Shown one piece after another: positions 23,048 to 34,384 of a DNA stretch of 64,000 nt (the first letter of the stretch is position 1; each line of letters begins with the position of its first letter). Source of the DNA: Croceimicrobium hydrocarbonivorans (lineage in GTDB: Bacteria; Bacteroidota; Bacteroidia; Flavobacteriales; Schleiferiaceae). The DNA is taken from NCBI RefSeq assembly GCF_014524565.1, contig NZ_CP060139.1, forward strand, positions 2,301,501-2,365,500, written 5' to 3'. The notes beneath the pieces were generated by a model that saw only the letters and a list, made by a program, of their open reading frames with translations, made no database searches and was not told the origin of the DNA. The translations under genes were made by a program, and so were the position numbers.

Positions 23048-24355
23048 ATGCCTCAGCTTTCCCGCTATTGGTCCTTTCTGTTTTTTGCCAGTTTGGGGTA
23101 TTATACCCTGCTTTTACCTTGGCAAGTGCAGTGGCTGCCAGTAACTTTGGGAATTATGCTGAGTGGTTTGTTTTGGCTCTTAAGTGCCGACTTCCGCTCT
23201 AAGCTTCAAAACCTATCCGGTAATAAATACGCTGCATTTCTTTTTGCCAGTTTTCTGATTGTAGTCCTGGGCTCCATGCATTCGGCAGAACAAGAGCAAG
23301 CCTCCAAAGAAGTATTTTCGAAACTGCCATTTTTAGTTTGGCCCTTGATGCTGGGGAGTGTAAAAGCTCTGGAGAAAAACCGCATGGAGCAGATCCTGCG
23401 CATTTTTGTGCTCTCCACCGCAGTATTGGTTTTAGTTTCTTTCGGATACGCCTTTTATCGCTATCAACAGTTTTCGGATCCGGTGGTCTTTTATTTCGCA
23501 GATTTACTGATCCTCACTAAGGTGCCGCCGCATTATTTAGGCATGTATGTAACCTTTGCCTATGCGCTTTTAATGTATCGTCTGATCCGCGGAACCCCAC
23601 TTCTACCCAAAATTTGGCTTAATGCCTTCATCCTTTGTTTGTTTATTCTGGCGATTATTTTCATTTGGGTTCGGATGCAATATTTGCTCTTTATCCTGGT
23701 CAATGCTTTTTTGGTAGGACAGTATATCAAAGCCAAGAAAGGGAAGAAGGTAGCCTATGCCGCTTTTGCGATGTTTACCCTGTTTTTCAGTCTGCTGCTA
23801 TTAGCCATTCCTGGCAGTAGAAGCCGCCTGCTCGACACTTACAATGAACTACGCTCATTCGAGCAAATGGTGGAAAACAAGCAAACCAATCCCCGTAAGT
23901 TTTTGTGGAGTGAAGGGGTAGAGGTTATTGCAGAGCATTTCTGGATGGGCGTTGGAACCGGCTCAGAGAATACGGCCCTCAATGAAAAGCTCGAAAAGGT
24001 GGATGCTATCTTTTGGGATGGTAAGCATACCTATCAGCTTTATGAAATGCGCTTCAATTACCACAATAGCTTTTTGCAGGTCTTTGCCGCCAATGGAGTT
24101 TTTGCCTTTGCCCTTTTCTTGATTTTACTCTTTTACCCACTCTTTGATATTCGCAAGCATCCCTATCGGACCGAGGTTCGTCTCTTTTTAGGAATTTGCA
24201 TTTTGAGCTTTATTACCGAGAGTATGCTCGAACGCCAGGCTGGAGTACTTTTCTTTAGCTTCTTTTATGCCCTTTTACTGGCCATGCCCCATACTAAAAG
24301 TCAGGACTTAAAGCCGCGCCGACCCGCTCTTGAAGCAGAGTCGGAGAAAGCCTGA
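23048..24355 (+). CDS. O-antigen ligase/polymerase-type membrane protein (first copy)
   Basis: The protein has 435 residues with about ten membrane helices. The signature is the large periplasmic loop after about 250 with VENKQTNPRKFLWSEGVEVI, GVGTGSENTALNEK and FNYHNSFLQVFAANGV, which matches the Wzy_C/WaaL group. These inner-membrane enzymes either join repeat units on undecaprenyl carriers (Wzy) or transfer finished O-antigen to lipid A core (WaaL), and motifs cannot separate the two. It starts 1 nt after the protease stop and opens the polysaccharide locus. A second member is at 33116. About 25 C-terminal residues are a charged cytoplasmic tail. Confidence 0.8.
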   Translation: MPQLSRYWSFLFFASLGYYTLLLPWQVQWLPVTLGIMLSGLFWLLSADFRSKLQNLSGNKYAAFLFASFLIVVLGSMHSAEQEQASKEVFSKLPFLVWPLMLGSVKALEKNRMEQILRIFVLSTAVLVLVSFGYAFYRYQQFSDPVVFYFADLLILTKVPPHYLGMYVTFAYALLMYRLIRGTPLLPKIWLNAFILCLFILAIIFIWVRMQYLLFILVNAFLVGQYIKAKKGKKVAYAAFAMFTLFFSLLLLAIPGSRSRLLDTYNELRSFEQMVENKQTNPRKFLWSEGVEVIAEHFWMGVGTGSENTALNEKLEKVDAIFWDGKHTYQLYEMRFNYHNSFLQVFAANGVFAFALFLILLFYPLFDIRKHPYRTEVRLFLGICILSFITESMLERQAGVLFFSFFYALLLAMPHTKSQDLKPRRPALEAESEKA

Positions 24356-25216: not shown

Positions 25217-26460
25217 TGCAGCGCCTCGGTCGGAATATCGGATTTATGGGCCTTTCGCAGGCGGCTAATTATCTGCTGCCGCTGGTTACCCTGCCTTTTA
25301 TTACCCGGATTGTTGGTCCTGATAATTATGGACTGATTGAATTCGCTACCGTTACTGTCCTTTATTTTTCCGCGCTGGTTACTTATGGGTTTACCTTTAC
25401 CGGCACTCGTAAGATTGCCGAATTAGGCGAATCCCATCATCGAATTTCCAAGGTTTATTCGGTAGTGATGCAATCGAAATTATTGCTGCTACTGCTAAGT
25501 ACCCTTCTTTTCATTCTACTATTATTCCTGGTGCCCGAGTATGCTACGGAAAAGAAGCTGATGATCTTCGCCTTTCCCTTTGTGATAGGCTGGGGCCTTT
25601 ATCCTGATTTTCTATTTCAAGGTCGGCAGGATTTAGGGGTCATCGCCTTAGCCAATTTGGGTATCAAAACGGTAGGAGCCGTGCTTATTCTTAGCCTTTT
25701 ACGCGAGCCGGAAGATTATCCGCTGGTAGTGGGGATTAATTCCATAACTCAAATAGCCGCAGCAGCAATTACCCTTTGGTATGCCCATTATCGTTATAAA
25801 TGGCTCCATTTTCAATGGCAGGCCTGGCGCATGGTAAAGGCCTATCTCAAAAGCGGCTTTTACATTTTTGCTTCGCATTTCTTTACTCGGGTTTACACCT
25901 TTGGTAGTATCCTCTTTTTAGGCTTTATCCTCGCCGAAAGGGAATTGGGGCTTTTCGCCGCTGCCATGAAGCTTATTACCGTAGGGCAAAGCTTTCTCTT
26001 TACTCCAGTTGGTAGTGCGCTTTATCCCCATTTAGCTCAAAAGCTTAAGGATGATCCTGCCAGCTATTTCAAAGAAAGACGTCGATTTTTGGGCTATCTC
26101 CTGGCCCTTAGTGCCCTGCTTTCAATAGTGCTGATCGTCGGTCAGGATTTTTGGGTACGATTGCTTTTTGGTGCAGCCTATGAGGAAGCGGCTCCGGCAT
26201 TGGCCTTAATGGCTCCAGTGATGGTATTTACGGCTTTAAGTCATTTTGGAATGAAGCAGGGCTTAATGGTGCTCAAGGCAGATGGATGGAATTTCCGCAT
26301 TGTACTGATCACCGGATTGGCTTCTATTGCCTTTAATTATTTCTTTATCGAATGGATGGGGATGATAGGAGCCGCTTGGGCCAAATTGGCGCTCGAAGCT
26401 TTACTGGCGATCCTCAGTCTCTACTATTTTCAAAAGGCGGTGCAGCGTTTTAAGCGCTAA
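25216..26460 (+). CDS. Wzx-type oligosaccharide flippase
   Basis: The protein has 414 residues with about twelve membrane helices. The start GFMGLSQAANYLLPLVTLPFITRIVGPDNYGLIEFA is typical of the MOP/PST exporter group, as are FQGRQDLG near 138 and the central KLITVGQSFLFTPVGSALYPHL. It should move undecaprenyl-linked repeat units across the inner membrane. It is coupled to the glycosyltransferase upstream and overlaps the convergent gene at 26450 by 11 nt. It is the only flippase in the locus. Confidence 0.88.
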   Translation: MQRLGRNIGFMGLSQAANYLLPLVTLPFITRIVGPDNYGLIEFATVTVLYFSALVTYGFTFTGTRKIAELGESHHRISKVYSVVMQSKLLLLLLSTLLFILLLFLVPEYATEKKLMIFAFPFVIGWGLYPDFLFQGRQDLGVIALANLGIKTVGAVLILSLLREPEDYPLVVGINSITQIAAAAITLWYAHYRYKWLHFQWQAWRMVKAYLKSGFYIFASHFFTRVYTFGSILFLGFILAERELGLFAAAMKLITVGQSFLFTPVGSALYPHLAQKLKDDPASYFKERRRFLGYLLALSALLSIVLIVGQDFWVRLLFGAAYEEAAPALALMAPVMVFTALSHFGMKQGLMVLKADGWNFRIVLITGLASIAFNYFFIEWMGMIGAAWAKLALEALLAILSLYYFQKAVQRFKR

Positions 26461-27484
26461 AATAGTCTCGCAGAAAAGCGGCCTCTCTTACACTCTCAAA
26501 GCCCCAATAGTCGGCGGTCGCGGCTCTTTGTTCCGCACTAATATCCATTCGTAATTCGGAGAAAAGCTGTGAAAAATAAGCACGTTCGGCAGCCACTCGC
26601 TCCTTTACAGATCCGGCTGAACCTCCCGCTTCAAAGCGTTTCAATTCCTTGAGATTGGAAGCCTTTTGGTCGATTTGCTGTTGGAAGATATAATGCGGTT
26701 TGTTGAGGTATACACAAAAGCCGGTTTGGGTACCCATACCATTGCTCATGGTGAGGTCGGCCAATTCGATATGGCTGCGCTGTCGCGCGATGAAATGCCG
26801 ATCGAAACGATGACCGGCGGTAACCAAATGAAATCCCTCAGCCCGATAAGCTGCTACTTTATCCGGATCTCGAGCATCTAAATAATAGAGGCAAATCAAC
26901 ACCGAATCAAAATCCTTTGCTACACCTTTAATTTCACTAATCAATTCCTGATCGTTGAAACCGGCCTTCACATTTTTCATGCTGTGAAAGGGGTATACTA
27001 AGAGCGTTTTTCCCAATCGCGCTTTCAATTTTACTTGTTCCTCTGCTTCCAAAATAGAAGAAGCATAATGGATATAGGGGCCGATCGCCAGGCTTTCCTT
27101 ATTGGGGATTTTAGCCGCTAAGATTTCACGACGCTGTTCGCTGAGCGTAATGATTCTAGGAAAATGCCAATGAAATTGATCAGGATGAACAATTCCGCCT
27201 AAAAAAAGTCCGTGCTCCATATAGGCTCTCAAGTCACTTTTGATACCCGCATATTTTTTCAGGTAGGAAGCGTAGCCATAGAGATTGTTATCTATCACTC
27301 TTTCTTCCGGACCAAAGGCAATGTCCTGCGAAAGTTGCTCAATATCAAAAAGATCAATTTTTCTTCTACGTTCAATTTCAGCGTCCACGGCCTTGCCTTT
27401 TTGCCAGCGGTAGGCATAAAACATGGATTTTTCCAGCAGGGGCTGGGAGGCTATAAAGCGCTTTAATTGGTCTTTGGCCGACAA
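26450..27484 (-). CDS. Unrecognised protein of the polysaccharide locus, GT-B-like
   Basis: The protein has 344 residues with no membrane segment. The start codon appears to be TTG at 27484; the next Met is at residue 21. The N-terminal half contains YMEHGLFLGG and FPRIITLSEQRREIL, the second half TLLVYPFHSMKN, SVLICLYYLD and ADLTMSNGMGTQTGFCVYLNKP. A HG..G segment, a linker and a C-terminal 'S/N-G-x-G-T-x-x-G...L..P' segment are the pattern of GT-B glycosyltransferases and capsule-synthesis proteins such as polysialyltransferases. This is a structural guess only. It is the one gene in the locus on the opposite strand and has its own promoter-like element, divergent from the acyltransferase gene. 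Confidence 0.45.
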   Translation of the reverse strand: MSAKDQLKRFIASQPLLEKSMFYAYRWQKGKAVDAEIERRRKIDLFDIEQLSQDIAFGPEERVIDNNLYGYASYLKKYAGIKSDLRAYMEHGLFLGGIVHPDQFHWHFPRIITLSEQRREILAAKIPNKESLAIGPYIHYASSILEAEEQVKLKARLGKTLLVYPFHSMKNVKAGFNDQELISEIKGVAKDFDSVLICLYYLDARDPDKVAAYRAEGFHLVTAGHRFDRHFIARQRSHIELADLTMSNGMGTQTGFCVYLNKPHYIFQQQIDQKASNLKELKRFEAGGSAGSVKERVAAERAYFSQLFSELRMDISAEQRAATADYWGFESVREAAFLRDYFSA

Positions 27485-27532: not shown

Positions 27533-27563
27533 TCGGGCTCCCCGTACCTTCTTTGTACCTTTG
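27533..27563 (+). promoter_or_regulatory. Promoter of the acyltransferase-NeuA/NeuB operon
   Basis: TACCTTTG (27556-27563) exactly matches the -7 consensus, and a TTTC at 27531-27534 lies 21 bp upstream in the -33 place. The ATG at 27582 is 18 nt further on. It probably drives the genes from 27582 to at least 32027. Confidence 0.5.
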
Positions 27564-27581
27564 CCGCCAATATTTGGAGCC

Positions 27582-28127
27582 ATGAGCCAGTTACGGCAAC
27601 ATTTAAAATACGGATTCGGCCAAAAATGGCGGGCCTTTCGCCAAAAACGCCGACTCTCTCATTTAGGTTCACGCGTGTGGATTGATAAGAATGTGGAGCT
27701 GATGCGTTACCCCATTAATATCCGCATTGAGGATGAGGTGGTACTTAAGGAAGGCGCTCGTATTTGTGCTTGTAATGATCGAGCGAAAATCAGTATTGGT
27801 GCTCGCACCACCATTGGTTACCATAATTTCATCTTCGCCAGTGCGGGAATTGAAATTGGCTCCGATTGTTTGATTGCCCCCTTTGTTTATTTGGTCGATT
27901 CAGATCATGGGATTCAAAAAGATCAGTTGATTAATCAGCAACCAAATCAAACAGCCCCTATAAAAATTGCTAATGGCGCTTGGATAGCCAGTAATGTCAC
28001 CATCCTCAAAGGAGTGGAGATTGGCGAAGGCGCGGTGATTGCAGCCAATTCCGTGGTGAACCGGAATGTTCCCGCTTTCGAAATTTGGGGTGGTAGCCCC
28101 GCTAAAAAGATTGGGGAGCGTGAATAA
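27582..28127 (+). CDS. Hexapeptide-repeat acyltransferase
   Basis: The protein has 181 residues from ATG 27582; an upstream TTG lies within the promoter. After a basic N-terminus the sequence is built of left-handed beta-helix hexapeptides: INIRIEDEVVLKEG, AKISIGARTTIGYHN, GIEIGSDCLIAPFVYLVDSDHG (with the typical extended loop and catalytic His), and IANGAWIASNVTILKG. This WbbJ/LbetaH type O- or N-acetylates sugars with acetyl-CoA. In this operon it may acylate the nonulosonic acid or another sugar of the repeat unit. Its end overlaps the next gene by 8 nt. Confidence 0.85.
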   Translation: MSQLRQHLKYGFGQKWRAFRQKRRLSHLGSRVWIDKNVELMRYPINIRIEDEVVLKEGARICACNDRAKISIGARTTIGYHNFIFASAGIEIGSDCLIAPFVYLVDSDHGIQKDQLINQQPNQTAPIKIANGAWIASNVTILKGVEIGEGAVIAANSVVNRNVPAFEIWGGSPAKKIGERE

Positions 28128-28827
28128 TTCTCAAGCCGCCGTAATTCTCGCTCGCTACTCCTCCTCCCGATTACCGGGAAAGGCCCTCATGGAAATCGCC
28201 GGAAAACCGGTACTTCAGCATATTGTAGATCGTTTAAAAAGCCTGCTCAAAGCAGAGCAGATTATTTTAGCAACCAGCGATTTAGCTTCTGATGATGCCT
28301 TAGAAGATTTTGCCGCTAAAGCGGGAATTGCCTGCTATCGCGGAAGCTTGGAAAGGGTGGGAGAACGTTTTTATGCCGCCGCCAAACAAAGCGGATGCGA
28401 TTATGCCATGCGCATTAATGGCGATAATATTTTTCTGGATCCGGCCTTGGTGGAGCATTTAATGCAAGCGGCAAACACTGGTAAATACCGTTTCTTAAGT
28501 AATGTGAAAGGCCGTTCCTTTCCCAAGGGAATGAGCGTTGAAATGGTAGAAATGGATTTCTATCAGCAAAAGCTAGAAGGCATTAAAGCCGACCCTTATT
28601 GCAATGAGCATGTAATGGTTTGCCTGTATGAAGAGGAGGCTCCGCCCGATCATTATTATTGGCAAAACGATATTTTACCCGAGGCCGCCGGTATTCAACT
28701 GGCCCTCGATACCCCTGAAGACTTTGAGCGTAGTCGCTATATGCTGGAGCAGATGCCCGCCGGTCACTACGATTTGAATACTACTTTTGAGTACTATCGC
28801 AACTATGAAGAATCTCTTAAAAGGTAA
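28120..28827 (+). CDS. SpsF-like acylneuraminate cytidylyltransferase family protein
   Basis: The protein has 235 residues from GTG 28120; upstream in-frame codons lie within the acyltransferase gene. The nucleotidyltransferase signature is AAVILARYSSSRLPGKAL (about 6-23), followed by GKPVLQHIVDRL, ILATSDLASDDAL and MRINGDNIFLDPALV. SpsF/NeuA-family proteins activate sugar acids with CTP, or in some lineages handle other sugars. It is directly followed by the NeuB-type synthase with a 23-nt overlap, which supports a nonulosonate role. A second, NeuA-like domain in this operon is fused to a glycosyltransferase, so the division of labour is unclear. Confidence 0.78.
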   Translation: MNNSQAAVILARYSSSRLPGKALMEIAGKPVLQHIVDRLKSLLKAEQIILATSDLASDDALEDFAAKAGIACYRGSLERVGERFYAAAKQSGCDYAMRINGDNIFLDPALVEHLMQAANTGKYRFLSNVKGRSFPKGMSVEMVEMDFYQQKLEGIKADPYCNEHVMVCLYEEEAPPDHYYWQNDILPEAAGIQLALDTPEDFERSRYMLEQMPAGHYDLNTTFEYYRNYEESLKR

Positions 28828-30655
28828 GCACGGACCTTTATTAATCGCCGAAATTGGTGGAAACCACGAAGGTGATTTTGAATACGCAAAGAGCCTTTGC
28901 CAATTGGCCATCGACACCGATGTAGATTTGGTGAAGTTTCAAATTTATACCGGAGATACCCTGGTTTCTCGCCTGGAAAGTCCTACCCGAAACCAACATT
29001 TTAAGAAATTCGAGTTAAGCAAAGAGCAGCATTTGGAATTGGCCAAAATGGTTACCGATGCGGGCTTGATGTACACTTCCTCCGTTTGGGATTTGGAGGC
29101 CATGAAATGGATTGACCCCTATATCCCCATCTATAAAATTGGTTCTGGCGACCTTACCGCCTATCCGGTGCTACGTGAAACCGCCGCTTTAGGCAAGCCC
29201 ATGATTATTTCTACCGGCCTATCTACCGAAGCCGAAGTTTTAGAAGCGGTGAGCTTTATTCAGAATTGCAATCCGATTTACAAAGACCCTTCGATGTTGG
29301 CGGTATTGCAGTGCACCAGTATGTATCCCATAAATCCCGGCGATGCGCATCTATCGGTAATGCAAAGCTTTAAAGAAAAGACGGGTCTTTGTGTGGGATA
29401 TTCGGATCATACCGAAGGTGCCAAAGCCCTGCATTATGCAGTGGCCATGGGTGCCGAAGTATTGGAATTCCATTTTACTGATGAAAGAGAAGGGAAAAGC
29501 TTCCGCGACCATAAGGTATCGCTAATGCCCAATGAGGTGAAGGAGCTTATCCAAGAGATAAAGTTGATTCAGGCTTATCAAGGAGAAGGCGAGAAAAAGC
29601 CCACCCAAATTGAGTTGGATAATGGGCATGAGCTTTCCTTCCGCCGAGCGGTTTATCCCAATCAAGATCTTAAGGCCGGAACGGTATTGTCTGCGGAAAA
29701 TTTAACCGTATTGCGTCCGAACCATGGTATTGATGCCCGTCATTTTGATAGCCTTATCGGGAAGCGACTTTTAAAGGATGTACAGGCCCATCAAAAATTA
29801 GAAACAGAAATGATTGATGGCTGGCAAAGTGAAGCCAGCTGCCCCCTTTGTAAGTCCGAGGTAAACAATTTGGTTTCAGCACTGGAGGCTAAGCCCGAAG
29901 GTGAAACTACCTATCTGCCGGAAGGCATGGCCTATTATCGTGAAATTCGCCACTGCGCCCATTGCGGCGTGTATTTCAATGCCCATAATTACGATCTCTT
30001 TACGGAGGAGTTTTATGCCGGCGAGTATAATTCGGCCATCGAAGAAGGGAAATTACAAGGTCGCTTTGAGCGGGTGATTAATCTACCGGAAGGTCAATCT
30101 GATAATCGCCTGCGAGTGCAGCGTATTATCCAATATTGTGAACTGGCATTGCCTACAGCTTTGAGTTCATTGAGAGGATTGGATGTAGGCTCAGGCACTG
30201 GCGTGTTCCCTTATGAGCTTTCCAAGCATATTGGCCAGATGAATGCTGTGGATCCCGATGGATTATCAGTAAAGCTGATGGGCAATAATCTGGACATTGA
30301 GAATATTTGGCATGGCAGCCTGAAGGATGTGCCTGCTCATGAGAAATTTGATTTGATCAGCTTTAATAAGGTTTTAGAGCATGTGCAGGATCCGGTGCAA
30401 ATGATGGCTCAGGCTAAAGATTATCTGAAACCCGGTGGGGCAGTTTATGTAGAATTGCCTTTTGCCGAGGGCATCATTAAACGTGGCGCCCAAATGGAGC
30501 GAGCCGAATTTTTTATAGAGCATTATACCACTTTCCCGCATAATGCATTCCGCTATTTACTGGAAGAAGCAGGTTATCAAATTCAATTGCAGAAGGATAT
30601 TCTGGAGCCTAGCGGCAAGGAAACGATTTACGGATTTGCAGTGATAAAGGAATAA
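28805..30655 (+). CDS. Fusion: NeuB-type nonulosonic acid synthase + methyltransferase
   Basis: The protein has 616 residues from ATG 28805. Residues 1-265 are an N-acetylneuraminate synthase barrel: LIAEIGGNHEGD (12-23), VKFQIYTGDTL, YKIGSGDLTAYPVL (110-123) and GYSDHTEG (198-205). It condenses phosphoenolpyruvate with a six-carbon sugar. About 275-336 are the SAF/antifreeze-like lid. About 340-616 are a separate module: a zinc finger (C346xxC349, C384xxC387) and a class I SAM methyltransferase with LDVGSGTGVFPYEL (459-472) and LEHVQDP. Other NeuB proteins end after the lid. The frame is continuous and well conserved in both parts, so this is a true fusion. It could make a methylated nonulosonic acid. 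Confidence 0.85.
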   Translation: MKNLLKGKHGPLLIAEIGGNHEGDFEYAKSLCQLAIDTDVDLVKFQIYTGDTLVSRLESPTRNQHFKKFELSKEQHLELAKMVTDAGLMYTSSVWDLEAMKWIDPYIPIYKIGSGDLTAYPVLRETAALGKPMIISTGLSTEAEVLEAVSFIQNCNPIYKDPSMLAVLQCTSMYPINPGDAHLSVMQSFKEKTGLCVGYSDHTEGAKALHYAVAMGAEVLEFHFTDEREGKSFRDHKVSLMPNEVKELIQEIKLIQAYQGEGEKKPTQIELDNGHELSFRRAVYPNQDLKAGTVLSAENLTVLRPNHGIDARHFDSLIGKRLLKDVQAHQKLETEMIDGWQSEASCPLCKSEVNNLVSALEAKPEGETTYLPEGMAYYREIRHCAHCGVYFNAHNYDLFTEEFYAGEYNSAIEEGKLQGRFERVINLPEGQSDNRLRVQRIIQYCELALPTALSSLRGLDVGSGTGVFPYELSKHIGQMNAVDPDGLSVKLMGNNLDIENIWHGSLKDVPAHEKFDLISFNKVLEHVQDPVQMMAQAKDYLKPGGAVYVELPFAEGIIKRGAQMERAEFFIEHYTTFPHNAFRYLLEEAGYQIQLQKDILEPSGKETIYGFAVIKE

Positions 30656-30656
30656 G

Positions 30657-32027
30657 ATGAGTCCATTAGTTTCGGTATACATTACCAATTACAATTACGA
30701 GCGTTTTATTCGCGAATCCATCGAAAGTGTATTGGCGCAAAGCCTGCAAGATTTCGAGTTAATCATCATCGACGATGGCTCTACCGATGCCAGTCGGGAT
30801 ATTATTGAAGAGTATCGCGAGCGCCCGGAGGTGACCATTATTTATCAGCAGAACAAAGGCCTTAACATCACCAATAATGTGGCGATGCGCGTGGCCAAGG
30901 GTAAATACCTCATGCGCTTGGATGCGGATGATTATTTGGTGCCCGAAGCATTGGAGAAAATGGTAGCCCCATTAGAGGCTGATCCCGAATTAGGACTGGT
31001 ATTTCCAGACTATTATTATGTGGATGCCGAAGGGCATATCACCGGCGAAGAACGTCGCCATAATTTTGAAAAGGAGGTAAGCCTCTACGATCAACCGGCC
31101 CACGGAGCTTGTACCATTATACGCCTGAGCTTCCTCAAGAAAATTGGTGGCTATAATGAAAGTTTCACTTGCCAGGATGGCTATGATCTGTGGTTGAAGT
31201 TCATCATTCACTATTCGGTGAAAAATGTAAATGAGCCACTATTCTATTACCGTCGTCATGGTTCTAACCTCACCACCAATGAGGAGCGAATTCTTGAGAC
31301 CCGTCGTGCCATTAAGGAAACCTTTTTAGACCTCAGCAATATTGAAAGCAGCACCCTAGCGGTAATTCCCGTGCGGAATAGCAAAATTAAAGGGGTGTCG
31401 ATCCCACTTTATGATTTGGGTACCGAAACCCTGCTTTCATTGAAGGTGAAAAAATTGCTGGAAGCCCGCAGTACCCAGCGGGTATATCTTATTTCGGAAG
31501 ATGCTGAAATATTGAGCTACGCCCGCAGCACTTTTGGCGATCATCAAAATGTGGTGGTATTGGAACGTCCCAGTCGATTGGCAGGACCCAACCAAACTTT
31601 GGGTGAAACAGTAAAATTGGCGACGCATCACGCGGAAGCGGAAAATTTAAACTACCGATTTGTAATGACCGCCGCTTTGGATTTCCCTTTTGTAGAAGCC
31701 GAAATTTTTGATGATGCGGTAAACACCGTAGAGCTCTTTAAGTCCGATTCGGTACTTAGCGTTCGTCCCGATAATAAGGCCTATTACCGCCATACTGGTC
31801 ATGGCTTGCAGGCCATTTTAGACCAGGAGAAATTTACCCGTATCGAAAGGGAAGCTTTGTATCGTGCTGCAGGTGGGGTGATGGTGGCAACCCGCGATAG
31901 CTTTGCGAAGAATGGTAAGATCAATGCCGGTAGAATGAGTCATGTGGTGGTGGATGAAAACACCGCCTTTGGTATATTTTCAGATTTCGATTTTCAGATA
32001 TTTAAGTCTTTAATGAGCGTAAATTAG
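30657..32027 (+). CDS. Fusion: GT2 glycosyltransferase + CMP-sialate-synthetase-like domain
   Basis: The protein has 456 residues. Residues 1-205 are a GT-A family 2 transferase: VSVYITNYNYERF, IIDDGSTD (37-44), RLDADDY (87-93) and CQDGYDLWLKF (172-182). From about 233 to the end is a NeuA-like nucleotidyltransferase: LAVIPVRNSKIKG (234-246) in place of the usual PARGGSKGIP, VYLISEDAEIL, VLERPSRLAG (301-310) and TAALDFPF where NeuA has LQPTSPL. The first CTP-loop is degenerate, so activity of this half is uncertain. One chain could activate a nonulosonic acid and transfer it. It starts 1 nt after the NeuB-fusion stop. Confidence 0.75.
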   Translation: MSPLVSVYITNYNYERFIRESIESVLAQSLQDFELIIIDDGSTDASRDIIEEYRERPEVTIIYQQNKGLNITNNVAMRVAKGKYLMRLDADDYLVPEALEKMVAPLEADPELGLVFPDYYYVDAEGHITGEERRHNFEKEVSLYDQPAHGACTIIRLSFLKKIGGYNESFTCQDGYDLWLKFIIHYSVKNVNEPLFYYRRHGSNLTTNEERILETRRAIKETFLDLSNIESSTLAVIPVRNSKIKGVSIPLYDLGTETLLSLKVKKLLEARSTQRVYLISEDAEILSYARSTFGDHQNVVVLERPSRLAGPNQTLGETVKLATHHAEAENLNYRFVMTAALDFPFVEAEIFDDAVNTVELFKSDSVLSVRPDNKAYYRHTGHGLQAILDQEKFTRIEREALYRAAGGVMVATRDSFAKNGKINAGRMSHVVVDENTAFGIFSDFDFQIFKSLMSVN

Positions 32028-32049
32028 CAGGGCATTTTTGCTTGGGTAC

Positions 32050-33141
32050 ATGGAAGAAATAATAGCGAAATACTCCGCTTATCTTGCTCCGGTTTTGGCC
32101 TTTGCCATTACCTATTTCTCCATTCCGGCCATTATTCGCCTAAGCTTGGTAAAGAAACTTTACGATCAACCGGATGAGCGTAAAAAGCATAATGCTCGCA
32201 TTTCCCCTTTAGGAGGAATGGCCATTTTCGGAGGTATGATCATCAGCTTTGTATTCTGCACGGCTCATTTATCCAATCCGGCGCTCAACTCCGTTTTAGT
32301 GGGTCTTTTTGTGCTCTTCATAACGGGAGTTAAGGACGATCTCTATCCTCTGGTTCCCTATAAAAAGATGCTGGGGCAATTGCTGGCCGTGGCGGTGGTG
32401 GTTATCCAGGGTGATGTGCGCCTGGTTAGCTTTTACGGTCTCTTCGGAGTTAATGAGCTTCCTTATGCCATTAGCGTGGCTCTGAGTATTGTTTTCTTTT
32501 TGGGGATCATCAATTCCTTTAATTTCATTGATGGGATCAATGGCCTCAGTGCCGGTATAGGGGTAGTGATTAGCGTAACTTATGCAGTGGTTTTCGACTA
32601 TCTCCATAATGACCTCTTCTTGATTTTAGCCCTCTGCATTGTAGGTTCACAATTGGCCTTTTTGCGTTTCAATTTGGTGAATGCCAAAATCTTCATGGGT
32701 GATTCGGGTTCCATGATCTTGGGCTTCCTGGTAGCCTTATTGAGTATTTCCTTCTTGCAGATAAATGAGCTGAGTGAGCAATTCTTATTGAAGAAAATTG
32801 ATGCTTTGGTCTTTGCTTTTGCGGTGATGATTATTCCGGTGGTAGATACCATTCGCGTGGTGTTTATCCGACTTTTCATTTTGCGCCGTTCTCCCTTTGC
32901 GGCCGATCGCAATCATATTCATCATGCCCTATTAGACATCGGCCTAAGCCATGTGCAAGCCAGCTTAAGCCTGATGGCTATAAATGTTTCCTTTGTGGTT
33001 TTGGCCTATTTTCTAAACGATTATCTCCGTGCCACCTATCTCTTTATAAGTCTATCTTTGTTGGCCTTGCTACTTTCGCAATTGCCATTTATAATCAAAC
33101 GCCAACAAAAGCGACTTGGGATTTACAAGCCATCTACCTAA
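32050..33141 (+). CDS. WecA/TagO-type undecaprenyl-phosphate sugar-1-phosphate transferase
   Basis: The protein has 363 residues from ATG 32050, with about eleven membrane helices. It links a HexNAc-1-phosphate to undecaprenyl phosphate and so starts repeat-unit synthesis. Motifs are SPLGGMAIFGG (about 51-61), the Asp pair in GVKDDLYPLVPYKKML, FNFIDGINGLSAG (about 156-168), NAKIFMGDSGSM and the histidine-rich DRNHIHHALL (about 286-295), all typical of the WecA/MraY superfamily. It lies near the end of the polysaccharide locus and overlaps the following O-antigen ligase-type gene if that starts at TTG 33116. Confidence 0.93.
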   Translation: MEEIIAKYSAYLAPVLAFAITYFSIPAIIRLSLVKKLYDQPDERKKHNARISPLGGMAIFGGMIISFVFCTAHLSNPALNSVLVGLFVLFITGVKDDLYPLVPYKKMLGQLLAVAVVVIQGDVRLVSFYGLFGVNELPYAISVALSIVFFLGIINSFNFIDGINGLSAGIGVVISVTYAVVFDYLHNDLFLILALCIVGSQLAFLRFNLVNAKIFMGDSGSMILGFLVALLSISFLQINELSEQFLLKKIDALVFAFAVMIIPVVDTIRVVFIRLFILRRSPFAADRNHIHHALLDIGLSHVQASLSLMAINVSFVVLAYFLNDYLRATYLFISLSLLALLLSQLPFIIKRQQKRLGIYKPST

Positions 33142-34384
33142 ATTAAATAGCGCGCCGGCTCGTTTTGAGCTCTTAATTGCCGCGCTCTTGTTTAGCCTGC
33201 CTCTGGGTCAGGAGGGCTTAACCAATATTTTGCTTTTCGCGCTCTTTATTCAGAGTCTTATTGCCTATCGTTGGCCTCAATGGAGTGAAGGTTTTAAGGA
33301 TCCGATTTGGATTTTATCGGCCTTGTTTTATGCTTATTTATTCTTGAGCATCACCTGGGCTGAAGATCAGGCTGGGGGTCTGCGGCAAATGGAAACCAAA
33401 ACCGCCTTTTTATTGGCGCCCTTATTCATTTTGGCGGGGCGGAAATTATGGCCTAGTACCAGTCGGGAATTTGCTTTAAAGGCATTTTGGTGGGGCTGTA
33501 TGGTAGCCATGTTATGGGCCCTTTCCAATGCGGCCATCCGATCCTGGGAAGCCGGTGCTTTGTATATCACTCATGAAGCGGGTAGACGCTATTTTTTCGC
33601 TTATACCCATTTAGCCTCTCCTTTGATGCATCCGGGTTATTTGGCGGCCTATTTAGGCTTGGGGCTCTTTGCGGCGGTGGAATTGCAGGATAAGGCGAAG
33701 AAGAATTGGCAGTGGATATACCGTCTTTCTATAGTGTTCTTGATCGTTTTTATGGTGCTCTTACAAGCGCGGATAAACCTGATTGCCCTGTTTATGGTAA
33801 TTGGTTTGGCCGCTCTGTTTTTGGCCTGGCAACGCAAGGCGTATATCTGGTTAGGACTTCCGCTCTTGCCCATCCTGGCATTAGGCTTATTCATGGGACT
33901 GGCATCTGAGGATATGCAAAAGCGCTATTTTCAGGTACCAGATTTTGATTATGATATATCGGGTACAGACTTTAATAGTGCCACCTATCGATTGGCAGAA
34001 TGGAAATGTGCAACTGAAGTTATCGAATCTAATTTTTGGTACGGAACCGGCATTGGCGATAATCGCCAGGCTTTATTCGATAGTTACGAAGCCAATCATT
34101 TTTGGGAAGGTCTGAATAAGGGCTATAATGCCCATAACCAATATTTGGAAACGATGATCGCAGGAGGGCTGCCAGCGGTGGTTTTATTGACCTTACTGCT
34201 CTTGTACTATACCTATCGTGCTTTAAAGCAGATGGATTTCTTGGCCCTGAGTGGATTATTGTTTTTGATGATCAGTTTGAGTACTGAATCGATGTTTGAG
34301 CGAGTATGGGGAGTTTTGATTTTCACCCTCTTTTTCCCCTTCCTTTTAATGCGGTCTAAAGAATCCGATTCAACTGCTTATTGA
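33116..34384 (+). CDS. O-antigen ligase/polymerase-type membrane protein (second copy)
   Basis: The protein has 422 residues with about ten membrane helices. The start codon is uncertain: TTG 33116 is the first possible and would overlap the transferase gene by 26 nt. After about residue 280 the periplasmic loop reads ATYRLAEWKCATEVI, GTGIGDNRQALFDSYE and YNAHNQYLETMIAGGLPAV, the Wzy_C/WaaL pattern. It shares this layout with the gene at 23048, but the sequences differ widely. One may be the polymerase and the other the ligase. Its end overlaps the convergent dnaG by 29 nt. Confidence 0.8.
   Translation: MGFTSHLPKLNSAPARFELLIAALLFSLPLGQEGLTNILLFALFIQSLIAYRWPQWSEGFKDPIWILSALFYAYLFLSITWAEDQAGGLRQMETKTAFLLAPLFILAGRKLWPSTSREFALKAFWWGCMVAMLWALSNAAIRSWEAGALYITHEAGRRYFFAYTHLASPLMHPGYLAAYLGLGLFAAVELQDKAKKNWQWIYRLSIVFLIVFMVLLQARINLIALFMVIGLAALFLAWQRKAYIWLGLPLLPILALGLFMGLASEDMQKRYFQVPDFDYDISGTDFNSATYRLAEWKCATEVIESNFWYGTGIGDNRQALFDSYEANHFWEGLNKGYNAHNQYLETMIAGGLPAVVLLTLLLLYYTYRALKQMDFLALSGLLFLMISLSTESMFERVWGVLIFTLFFPFLLMRSKESDSTAY

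Follow-up and report, generated by a model that had tools for sequence, protein, structure and literature searches.

Does a protein that joins a glycosyltransferase (GT) to a domain resembling the CMP-sialate synthetase NeuA make the very CMP-sugar that it transfers? Such a fusion invites a make-and-use reading, and an earlier sequence-only reading of the locus described here proposed just this coupling of synthesis with transfer. The window is a 64,000-nucleotide stretch of the Croceimicrobium hydrocarbonivorans genome (NZ_CP060139.1, positions 2,301,501 to 2,365,500), and all coordinates below count from its first letter. The chain in question consists of:

30657..32027, + strand: fusion protein of 456 aa with an ATG start and no internal stop, GT2 plus NeuA-like domain.
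30657..31322, + strand: GT2 glycosyltransferase domain, residues 1-222 (PF00535, E 1.7e-31).
31350..32024, + strand: NeuA-like domain, residues 232-456, catalytic residues lost (from hhalign, a predicted model, its PDB matches and residue mapping).

The presence of both domains in one chain, as first proposed, is borne out. At the N-terminal end Pfam Glycos_transf_2 (PF00535) matches residues 6-143 with 109.9 bits against a gathering score of 23.3, and an alignment of the eight fusions that we found shows D39-D40-G41-S42, D89-A90-D91-D92 and Q173-D174-G175 to be invariant in all of them. We take D39-D40-G, D89-A-D91-D92 and Q173-D174-G175 to be the nucleotide/metal and base motifs of GT2 enzymes. 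The best NCBIfam matches of this domain are PRK10073 (E 4e-25), EpsE (7e-25) and TuaG (4e-24), all of them far under the curated cut-offs (88 versus 450 bits for EpsE, 86 versus 400 bits for TuaG, and likewise for PRK10073). The GT2 domain would act as a glycosyltransferase of a surface-glycan locus.

The C-terminal domain proved recognizable as NeuA only once its relatives were brought in. Single-sequence Pfam searches were weak (PF12804, E 0.012; CTP_transf_3, PF02348, E 0.11 and 12.8 bits, under the gathering cut-off of 22.6), and searches of PDB sequences gave no match with the C-terminal domain at E up to 1 or with its 7-row profile at E up to 10; because these single-sequence and shallow-profile searches came up empty, NeuA relatives were needed for the assignment. 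Aligned by hhalign against 18 NeuA/PseF proteins or domains, the eight fusion C-termini scored 99.4 % (E 3e-21, 218 columns), versus 3.3 % over a short stretch only for the SpsF-like family and 0.2 % for an unrelated protein of the cluster. An AlphaFold2 model of residues 228-456 only, built from a 30-row alignment, reached a pLDDT of 92.0 and a pTM of 0.87, and depends partly on the NeuA assignment because that alignment held NeuA relatives. The top PDB matches of the predicted model are CMP-NeuAc, CMP-Kdn and CMP-Pse synthetases with Z of 21.1-23.8 (6ifd 23.8 with an rmsd of 2.5 over 220, 9t4z 23.2, 1eyr 22.6, 9ftc 22.2; Foldseek E 4e-15 to 6ifd), followed by IspD, KdsB, TarI and GlmU at Z of about 18-21. 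Taken together, the profile-profile and structure methods are decisive that the C-terminal domain shares the fold and ancestry of NeuA, and an unrelated C-terminal fold, which would have undone the first interpretation, is ruled out by the model's PDB matches to NeuA enzymes.

Whether this NeuA body still carries out NeuA chemistry can be judged from its pocket. Residues were mapped by a MAFFT alignment onto Neisseria meningitidis NeuA, whose numbering is used throughout, and compared with 23 relatives lacking a GT, picked from 38; 18 of these are single-domain proteins and 5 are NeuA parts taken from proteins with two domains. The relevant sites are:

31368..31406, + strand: altered CTP P-loop, residues 238-250; Arg12 kept as R240, Lys21 replaced by I249 and Asn22 by P250.
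31563..31604, + strand: cytosine-loop equivalent, residues 303-316; Arg71 kept as R304 (8/8 fusions).
31674..31688, + strand: residues 340-344 (ALDFP); A340 at the Gln104 position, D342 at the Thr106 position.
31965..31979, + strand: former Mg2+ site, residues 437-441 (AFGIF); Asp209 replaced by G439 and Asp211 by F441.

The loop earlier flagged as altered (VRNSKIKG) is indeed there, at residues 239-246, and the losses extend well beyond it. Four positions that are nearly fixed among the relatives are kept in none of the eight fusions: Lys21 (I, W or a gap; kept in 22/23 relatives), Asn22 (P or a gap; 23/23), Gln104 (A, T or S; 21/23) and Asp211 (F, H or K; 22/23), with gaps at the Lys21 and Asn22 positions in the fusion of G1048, a genome of another order. 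Gln166, kept in all 23 relatives, is I or L in every fusion. The Asp209 position is Gly in 8/8 fusions and is a weaker marker because it is D in only 4/23 relatives (E in 16, N in 3). The relatives that break the conserved pattern are the L026 protein and, at Gln104, also that of L085. The accessible text of PMC2901514, from which we take the roles of Arg12 and Lys21 in the CTP P-loop, reports for N. meningitidis NeuA that D211A lowers kcat 15,000-fold and that D209A has the greatest effect. Asn22 reads the ribose of the nucleotide (PMC6580227, available portion), so that its loss would weaken nucleotide binding.

Other parts of the pocket have been retained. Arg12 and Arg71, the latter described as reading cytosine in the available portion of PMC6580227, are kept in 8/8 fusions; both are also invariant in 23/23 relatives and may thus be structural. 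Around Arg71 the loop reads AGPNQTL in the seven fusions of the family and differs in G1048. Arg165, paired with the sugar carboxylate by docking (PMC2901514, accessible text), corresponds to R395 and is Arg in 7/8 fusions, the window's included, and Lys in G1048. Tyr179 has become M or T, so that the sugar bound, if any, would differ; Lys142 and Phe192/193 have not been retained either, though these positions vary among the 23 relatives as well. Judged by its residues, the NeuA-like domain has very probably lost synthetase activity. The second domain had been suggested to have either changed its substrate or lost its activity, and with Lys21, Asn22, Gln104 and Asp211 gone from all eight fused homologues found, loss is the alternative that fits better.

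A candidate maker of the CMP-sugar stands among the neighbours of the fusion:

26450..27484, - strand: opposite-strand protein of no known family, in 11/88 family genomes.
27561..28127, + strand: hexapeptide acetyltransferase (PF00132, E 2.6e-16), conserved in 8/8 cassettes.
28066..28827, + strand: SpsF-like cytidylyltransferase (PF02348, E 6.7e-25), intact motifs.
28787..30655, + strand: NeuB ulosonate synthase (about residues 7-344; PF03102, E 2.6e-61) plus methyltransferase (about residues 350-622; PF13489, E 6e-19).
32038..33141, + strand: WecA/MraY-type sugar-phosphate transferase, lipid-linked glycan start (PF00953, E 1.2e-35).

The independent SpsF-like activator that had been noticed two genes upstream is confirmed; its nearest PDB relative is 6oew (E 2e-23). 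Its R30, K39, D120 and D215, covering the P-loop and both metal-type aspartates, are invariant in 8/8 loci, and we presume these roles from the KdsB pattern. Across the whole genome PF02348 finds two matches at E up to 1e-3, the SpsF-like protein and one that looks KdsB-like by eye. Since NeuB and an intact-motif SpsF-like protein accompany the fusion in 8/8 loci, the fused domain does not have to act as the synthetase, and the SpsF-like protein is likely to be the real CMP-ulosonate synthetase of the locus, as far as motifs can tell.

The reading that we prefer, at about even confidence, is that of a NeuA-derived pseudoenzyme domain carried on a GT2, which would bind an ulosonate or its CMP form, would dimerise, or would do both. 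A sialic-acid-like (nonulosonic) sugar would come from NeuB and be activated by the SpsF-like protein. The fused domain would most likely synthesize no CMP-sugar, because its triphosphate and Mg2+ residues are gone; it is predicted instead to bind the ulosonate, either as CMP-ulosonate or as a residue of the growing glycan, and to pair two chains in a dimer, and the GT2 would thereby be placed on an ulosonate-containing glycan intermediate. What the analysis shows is the fusion with its conservation and gene context, the predicted fold, and which residues were lost or kept; synthetase loss, ligand binding, dimerisation and the sugar transferred by the GT2 are the steps that we infer.

How selection has treated the domain bears both on this reading and on its main rival, in which the domain is a scaffold that dimerises the GT2 or docks onto the SpsF-like protein or NeuB and its former pocket stands empty. 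One further segment matters here:

31770..31874, + strand: dimerisation / sugar-recognition segment, residues 372-406, including R395 (= Arg165).

Of all parts of NeuA enzymes the dimerisation domain is conserved least, and it contributes to sugar specificity (PMC6580227, available portion). We counted invariant residues over residues 232-446 (215 positions), with seven fusions or with eight once G1048 was added. Among the seven, 94/215 positions are invariant, and residues 372-406 (24/35) rank first of nine regions, by a narrow margin over residues 351-371 (14/21), with the cytosine loop (9/14) and the P-loop region (8/19) behind them; the hypergeometric value for this segment is 0.001, for neighbouring sites that are not independent. 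With all eight, 42/215 remain invariant (residues 372-406, 11/35; 351-371, 11/21; cytosine loop, 3/14; P-loop region, 2/19; residues 430-446, 6/17). Residues 372-406 as the best conserved part in their own right, narrow with seven fusions, thus fail once G1048 is added, and we narrowed the claim to residues 351-406, a stretch picked after seeing the data, which hold 22/56 invariant positions versus 20/159 elsewhere. Nucleotide-binding loops that drift while residues 351-406 are held would fit a domain left with a role in binding or pairing. The window and G408, the one pair whose dS stays below 1 in all regions, gave a dN/dS of 0.008 for the GT2 and 0.045 for the C-terminal domain (0.115 in its N-terminal half, 0.014 in its C-terminal half), so that purifying selection acts on the C-terminal domain, though more weakly than on the GT2.

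These figures leave the scaffold alternative somewhat unlikely and the most credible of the rivals. The falling behind of residues 372-406 with G1048 weakens the binding or pairing reading and strengthens the scaffold alternative. The latter is also favoured by the position of the dimerisation segment within the best conserved stretch, residues 351-406; NeuA enzymes are, moreover, domain-swapped dimers (PMC6580227, available portion), and the equal invariance of Arg12 and Arg71 in the relatives could reflect structure. However, retention of R240 and R304 in every fusion and of R395 in all but one exceeds what a pure scaffold would need.

A different fate would be that of a nucleotidyltransferase with a changed substrate, whose metal site was rebuilt with D/E342 and another acid so that a different sugar acid is activated. 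At the Thr106 position 8/8 fusions carry D or E, versus T or S in 23/23 relatives without a GT, and D433 and D445 are invariant in 8/8 fusions. By way of the equivalence of Q96 and Q104, the place of Thr106 corresponds to the metal-binding Asp98 of capsule-type KdsB (PMC2901514, accessible text), and the acid there may represent a partly rebuilt acid site. However, G, F, H or K stands in place of the second KdsB ligand, Asp225 (the counterpart of Asp209/211), and Lys21 and Gln104 are gone too, leaving this alternative improbable. With a similarly slim chance, the GT2 itself may transfer the sialic-acid-like sugar, the dead domain taking CMP-ulosonate from the SpsF-like enzyme and holding it as donor; were this so, it would constitute a GT2-fold route to ulosonate transfer in which an activating enzyme has turned donor reader.

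The coupling that was proposed at the outset, in which CMP-ulosonate is produced by the NeuA-like domain and then transferred by the GT2, has in its favour the NeuA fold and ancestry of the C-terminal domain, the NeuB gene next door and a precedent for a GT-NeuA gene in Campylobacter cgtA/neuA1 (orf5/10; PMC7248181, in its accessible part). It is nevertheless very improbable and we do not uphold it, the catalytic residues being replaced or missing in every fusion beside a cytidylyltransferase with intact motifs in every locus. GT2 enzymes use UDP-, GDP- or dTDP-sugars and are not known to use CMP-sugars, which again counts against it.

A survey of other genomes, suggested by the sequence-only reading, found the fusion to be real and old. 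It is present at full length in 7/88 genomes of the family, the window's own included (the other six 68-98 % identical), and again at full length in G1048 (E 3e-42 with the fusion profile, 47 % identical). It thus spans 8 genomes, 5 genera and 2 orders, the seven others being 47-98 % identical to the window's; the UBA7878 MAG, which gave one locus in the contig scan, and G408 are counted as one genome. That the chain arose by a recent fusion or an assembly artefact and has no function, for which the residue losses and nothing else would speak, has a negligible chance given full-length copies in these genomes and purifying selection on the domain, and a sequencing artefact or pseudogene is rejected on the same two grounds.

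Beyond these eight genomes the survey brought up no further fusion in the samples covered. A single query of the phylum sample matched it in 44/395 genomes (own included; E 5e-7 to 1e-3 for the remainder), and apart from the window's frame no matched frame exceeded 321 aa (29 loci opened, the rest judged by frame length). With the fusion profile, 17/395 genomes of the order sample matched, seven of them the fusions and ten others, all opened, with no GT2 in any. In the class sample 8/395 matched, namely the window's own genome, G1048 and six others, all opened, with no GT2-domain match; one of this sample, L099, has an 801-aa frame of which 750 residues lie within the locus, and its NeuA-like stretch covers 501-561 of these. 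Within the order of G1048 6/42 genomes matched, G1048 and five others, all opened and without the GT2 fusion, and a tblastn search with the C-terminal domain as query gave no match in plasmids and phages at E 1e-5. An unrooted tree, with G1048 as a long row, puts the eight fused domains together on the same side of a branch supported at 100/96.

A protein without a GT, at L026:1426-2175 (-) in G368, is also NeuA-like and has lost Lys21, Gln104 and Asp211. It groups with the fusions at 98/97, on a very long branch that makes the grouping unsure, and a single gene separates it from the C-terminal end of a canonical-looking NeuA (by eye). It is possibly a second NeuA-derived pseudoenzyme.

The fusion travels as part of a cassette. 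In the seven family genomes the common gene order is flippase-like, opposite-strand ORF, hexapeptide acetyltransferase, SpsF-like, NeuB, fusion, WecA-like and ligase-like (flippase and ligase named by eye; G396 has one extra gene), and in G1048 it is acetyltransferase, SpsF-like, NeuB, separate methyltransferase and fusion. NeuB is a separate protein in 6/8 fusion loci. The gap between NeuB and the fusion holds a second hexapeptide acetyltransferase in five family genomes and, instead, the NeuB-fused methyltransferase in the window and G408, an exchange that suggests, from gene content, the swapping of an ulosonate-modifying enzyme. That NeuB-fused methyltransferase (28787-30655) also carries a Cys-rich stretch (CPLC...CAHCG). 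A NeuB close to the window's (76-99 %) occurs in exactly the seven fusion genomes of the family at a threshold of 1e-40, versus 33-39 % for other NeuB proteins. Two O-antigen-ligase/polymerase-like membrane proteins (by eye) lie at 23048-24355 and 33116-34384 of the window, with homologues in 5/6 and 6/6 related loci, respectively.

The opposite-strand protein (26450-27484) matches no Pfam family and no PDB entry, and a model folded with six orthologues was poor (pLDDT 47.6). The family genomes that carry its gene are the seven fusion genomes plus G418, G421, G427 and G428. In G418 (L113) the ORF lies near a pseudaminate cassette, with PseB, PseC, PseF and PseI above NCBIfam cut-offs, that replaces the NeuB/SpsF-like/fusion cassette between similar flanking genes; in G428 (L117) a PseF above cut-off and a gene of the NeuB family lie close to it, and G427 (L115) has a pseudaminate-type cassette like that of G428 by similarity only. 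In G421 the 19 kb read around the ORF showed no nonulosonate cassette genes. The ORF is therefore found near a fusion/NeuB or pseudaminate-type cassette in 10 of the 11 family genomes carrying it, and since it stands beside two kinds of cassette the locus appears to swap nonulosonate cassettes, the fusion being part of one. On gene context the opposite-strand protein is a candidate for a new family of ulosonate transferases. Just upstream of the G1048 cassette, L112:4518-5420 (+) encodes a protein with a GNGPSLK motif, a Pfam MptE-like match below cut-off (E 1.1e-4) and no PDB match. We take this motif to be that of GT42 sialyltransferases, and the protein is possibly GT42-like.

What the fusion seems to record is a NeuA body kept after its chemistry was lost, a loss seen in all eight fused homologues found, across two orders, beside a second cytidylyltransferase whose motifs are intact. 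Should the domain bind CMP-ulosonate or an ulosonate-capped glycan, it would be an enzyme-derived reader of sialic-acid-like sugars, a small and testable case of an activating enzyme becoming a recognition module, and a reason for caution before proteins of this kind are annotated as bifunctional sialate synthetases. A literature search on NeuB clusters of Bacteroidetes gave no match, and another on fusions of this kind and on NeuA domains without activity, which covered few subscription journals and was judged by titles and the openings of abstracts, brought up nothing beyond the C. jejuni gene.

Among known systems, the GT2 polymer transferases EpsE and TuaG are described by models that span 265 and 252 positions and so leave no room for a NeuA-like extension. 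NeuA-phosphatase and NeuA-PseG two-domain proteins (L084, L091; partners named by eye) likewise place a NeuA domain in a multi-domain chain, but there NeuA is N-terminal, Lys21, Gln104 and Asp211 are kept and the partner is not a GT2. The fused domain resembles NeuA/CMAS enzymes (1eyr, 6ifd) in fold, length, the equivalents of Arg12, Arg71 and Arg165 and the dimerisation segment, and differs from them at the positions of Lys21, Asn22, Gln104, Gln166, Asp209 and Asp211, replaced or missing in 8/8 fusions. A known precedent for a GT-NeuA fusion is Campylobacter jejuni cgtA/neuA1, which encodes one fused two-domain protein whose NeuA part is an active CMP-Neu5Ac synthetase supplying the CMP-sialate of the locus, and whose GT is a GalNAc transferase of another GT family. 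This gene (orf5/10), like the one here, is named for a GT and NeuA and lies with neuB1 in a sialic-acid glycan locus, so that a GT-NeuA gene as such is already known (PMC7248181, in its accessible part). Unlike CgtA/NeuA1, the fusion described here has, by its residues, a NeuA part without catalytic residues, and a separate SpsF-like enzyme stands beside it in all eight loci.
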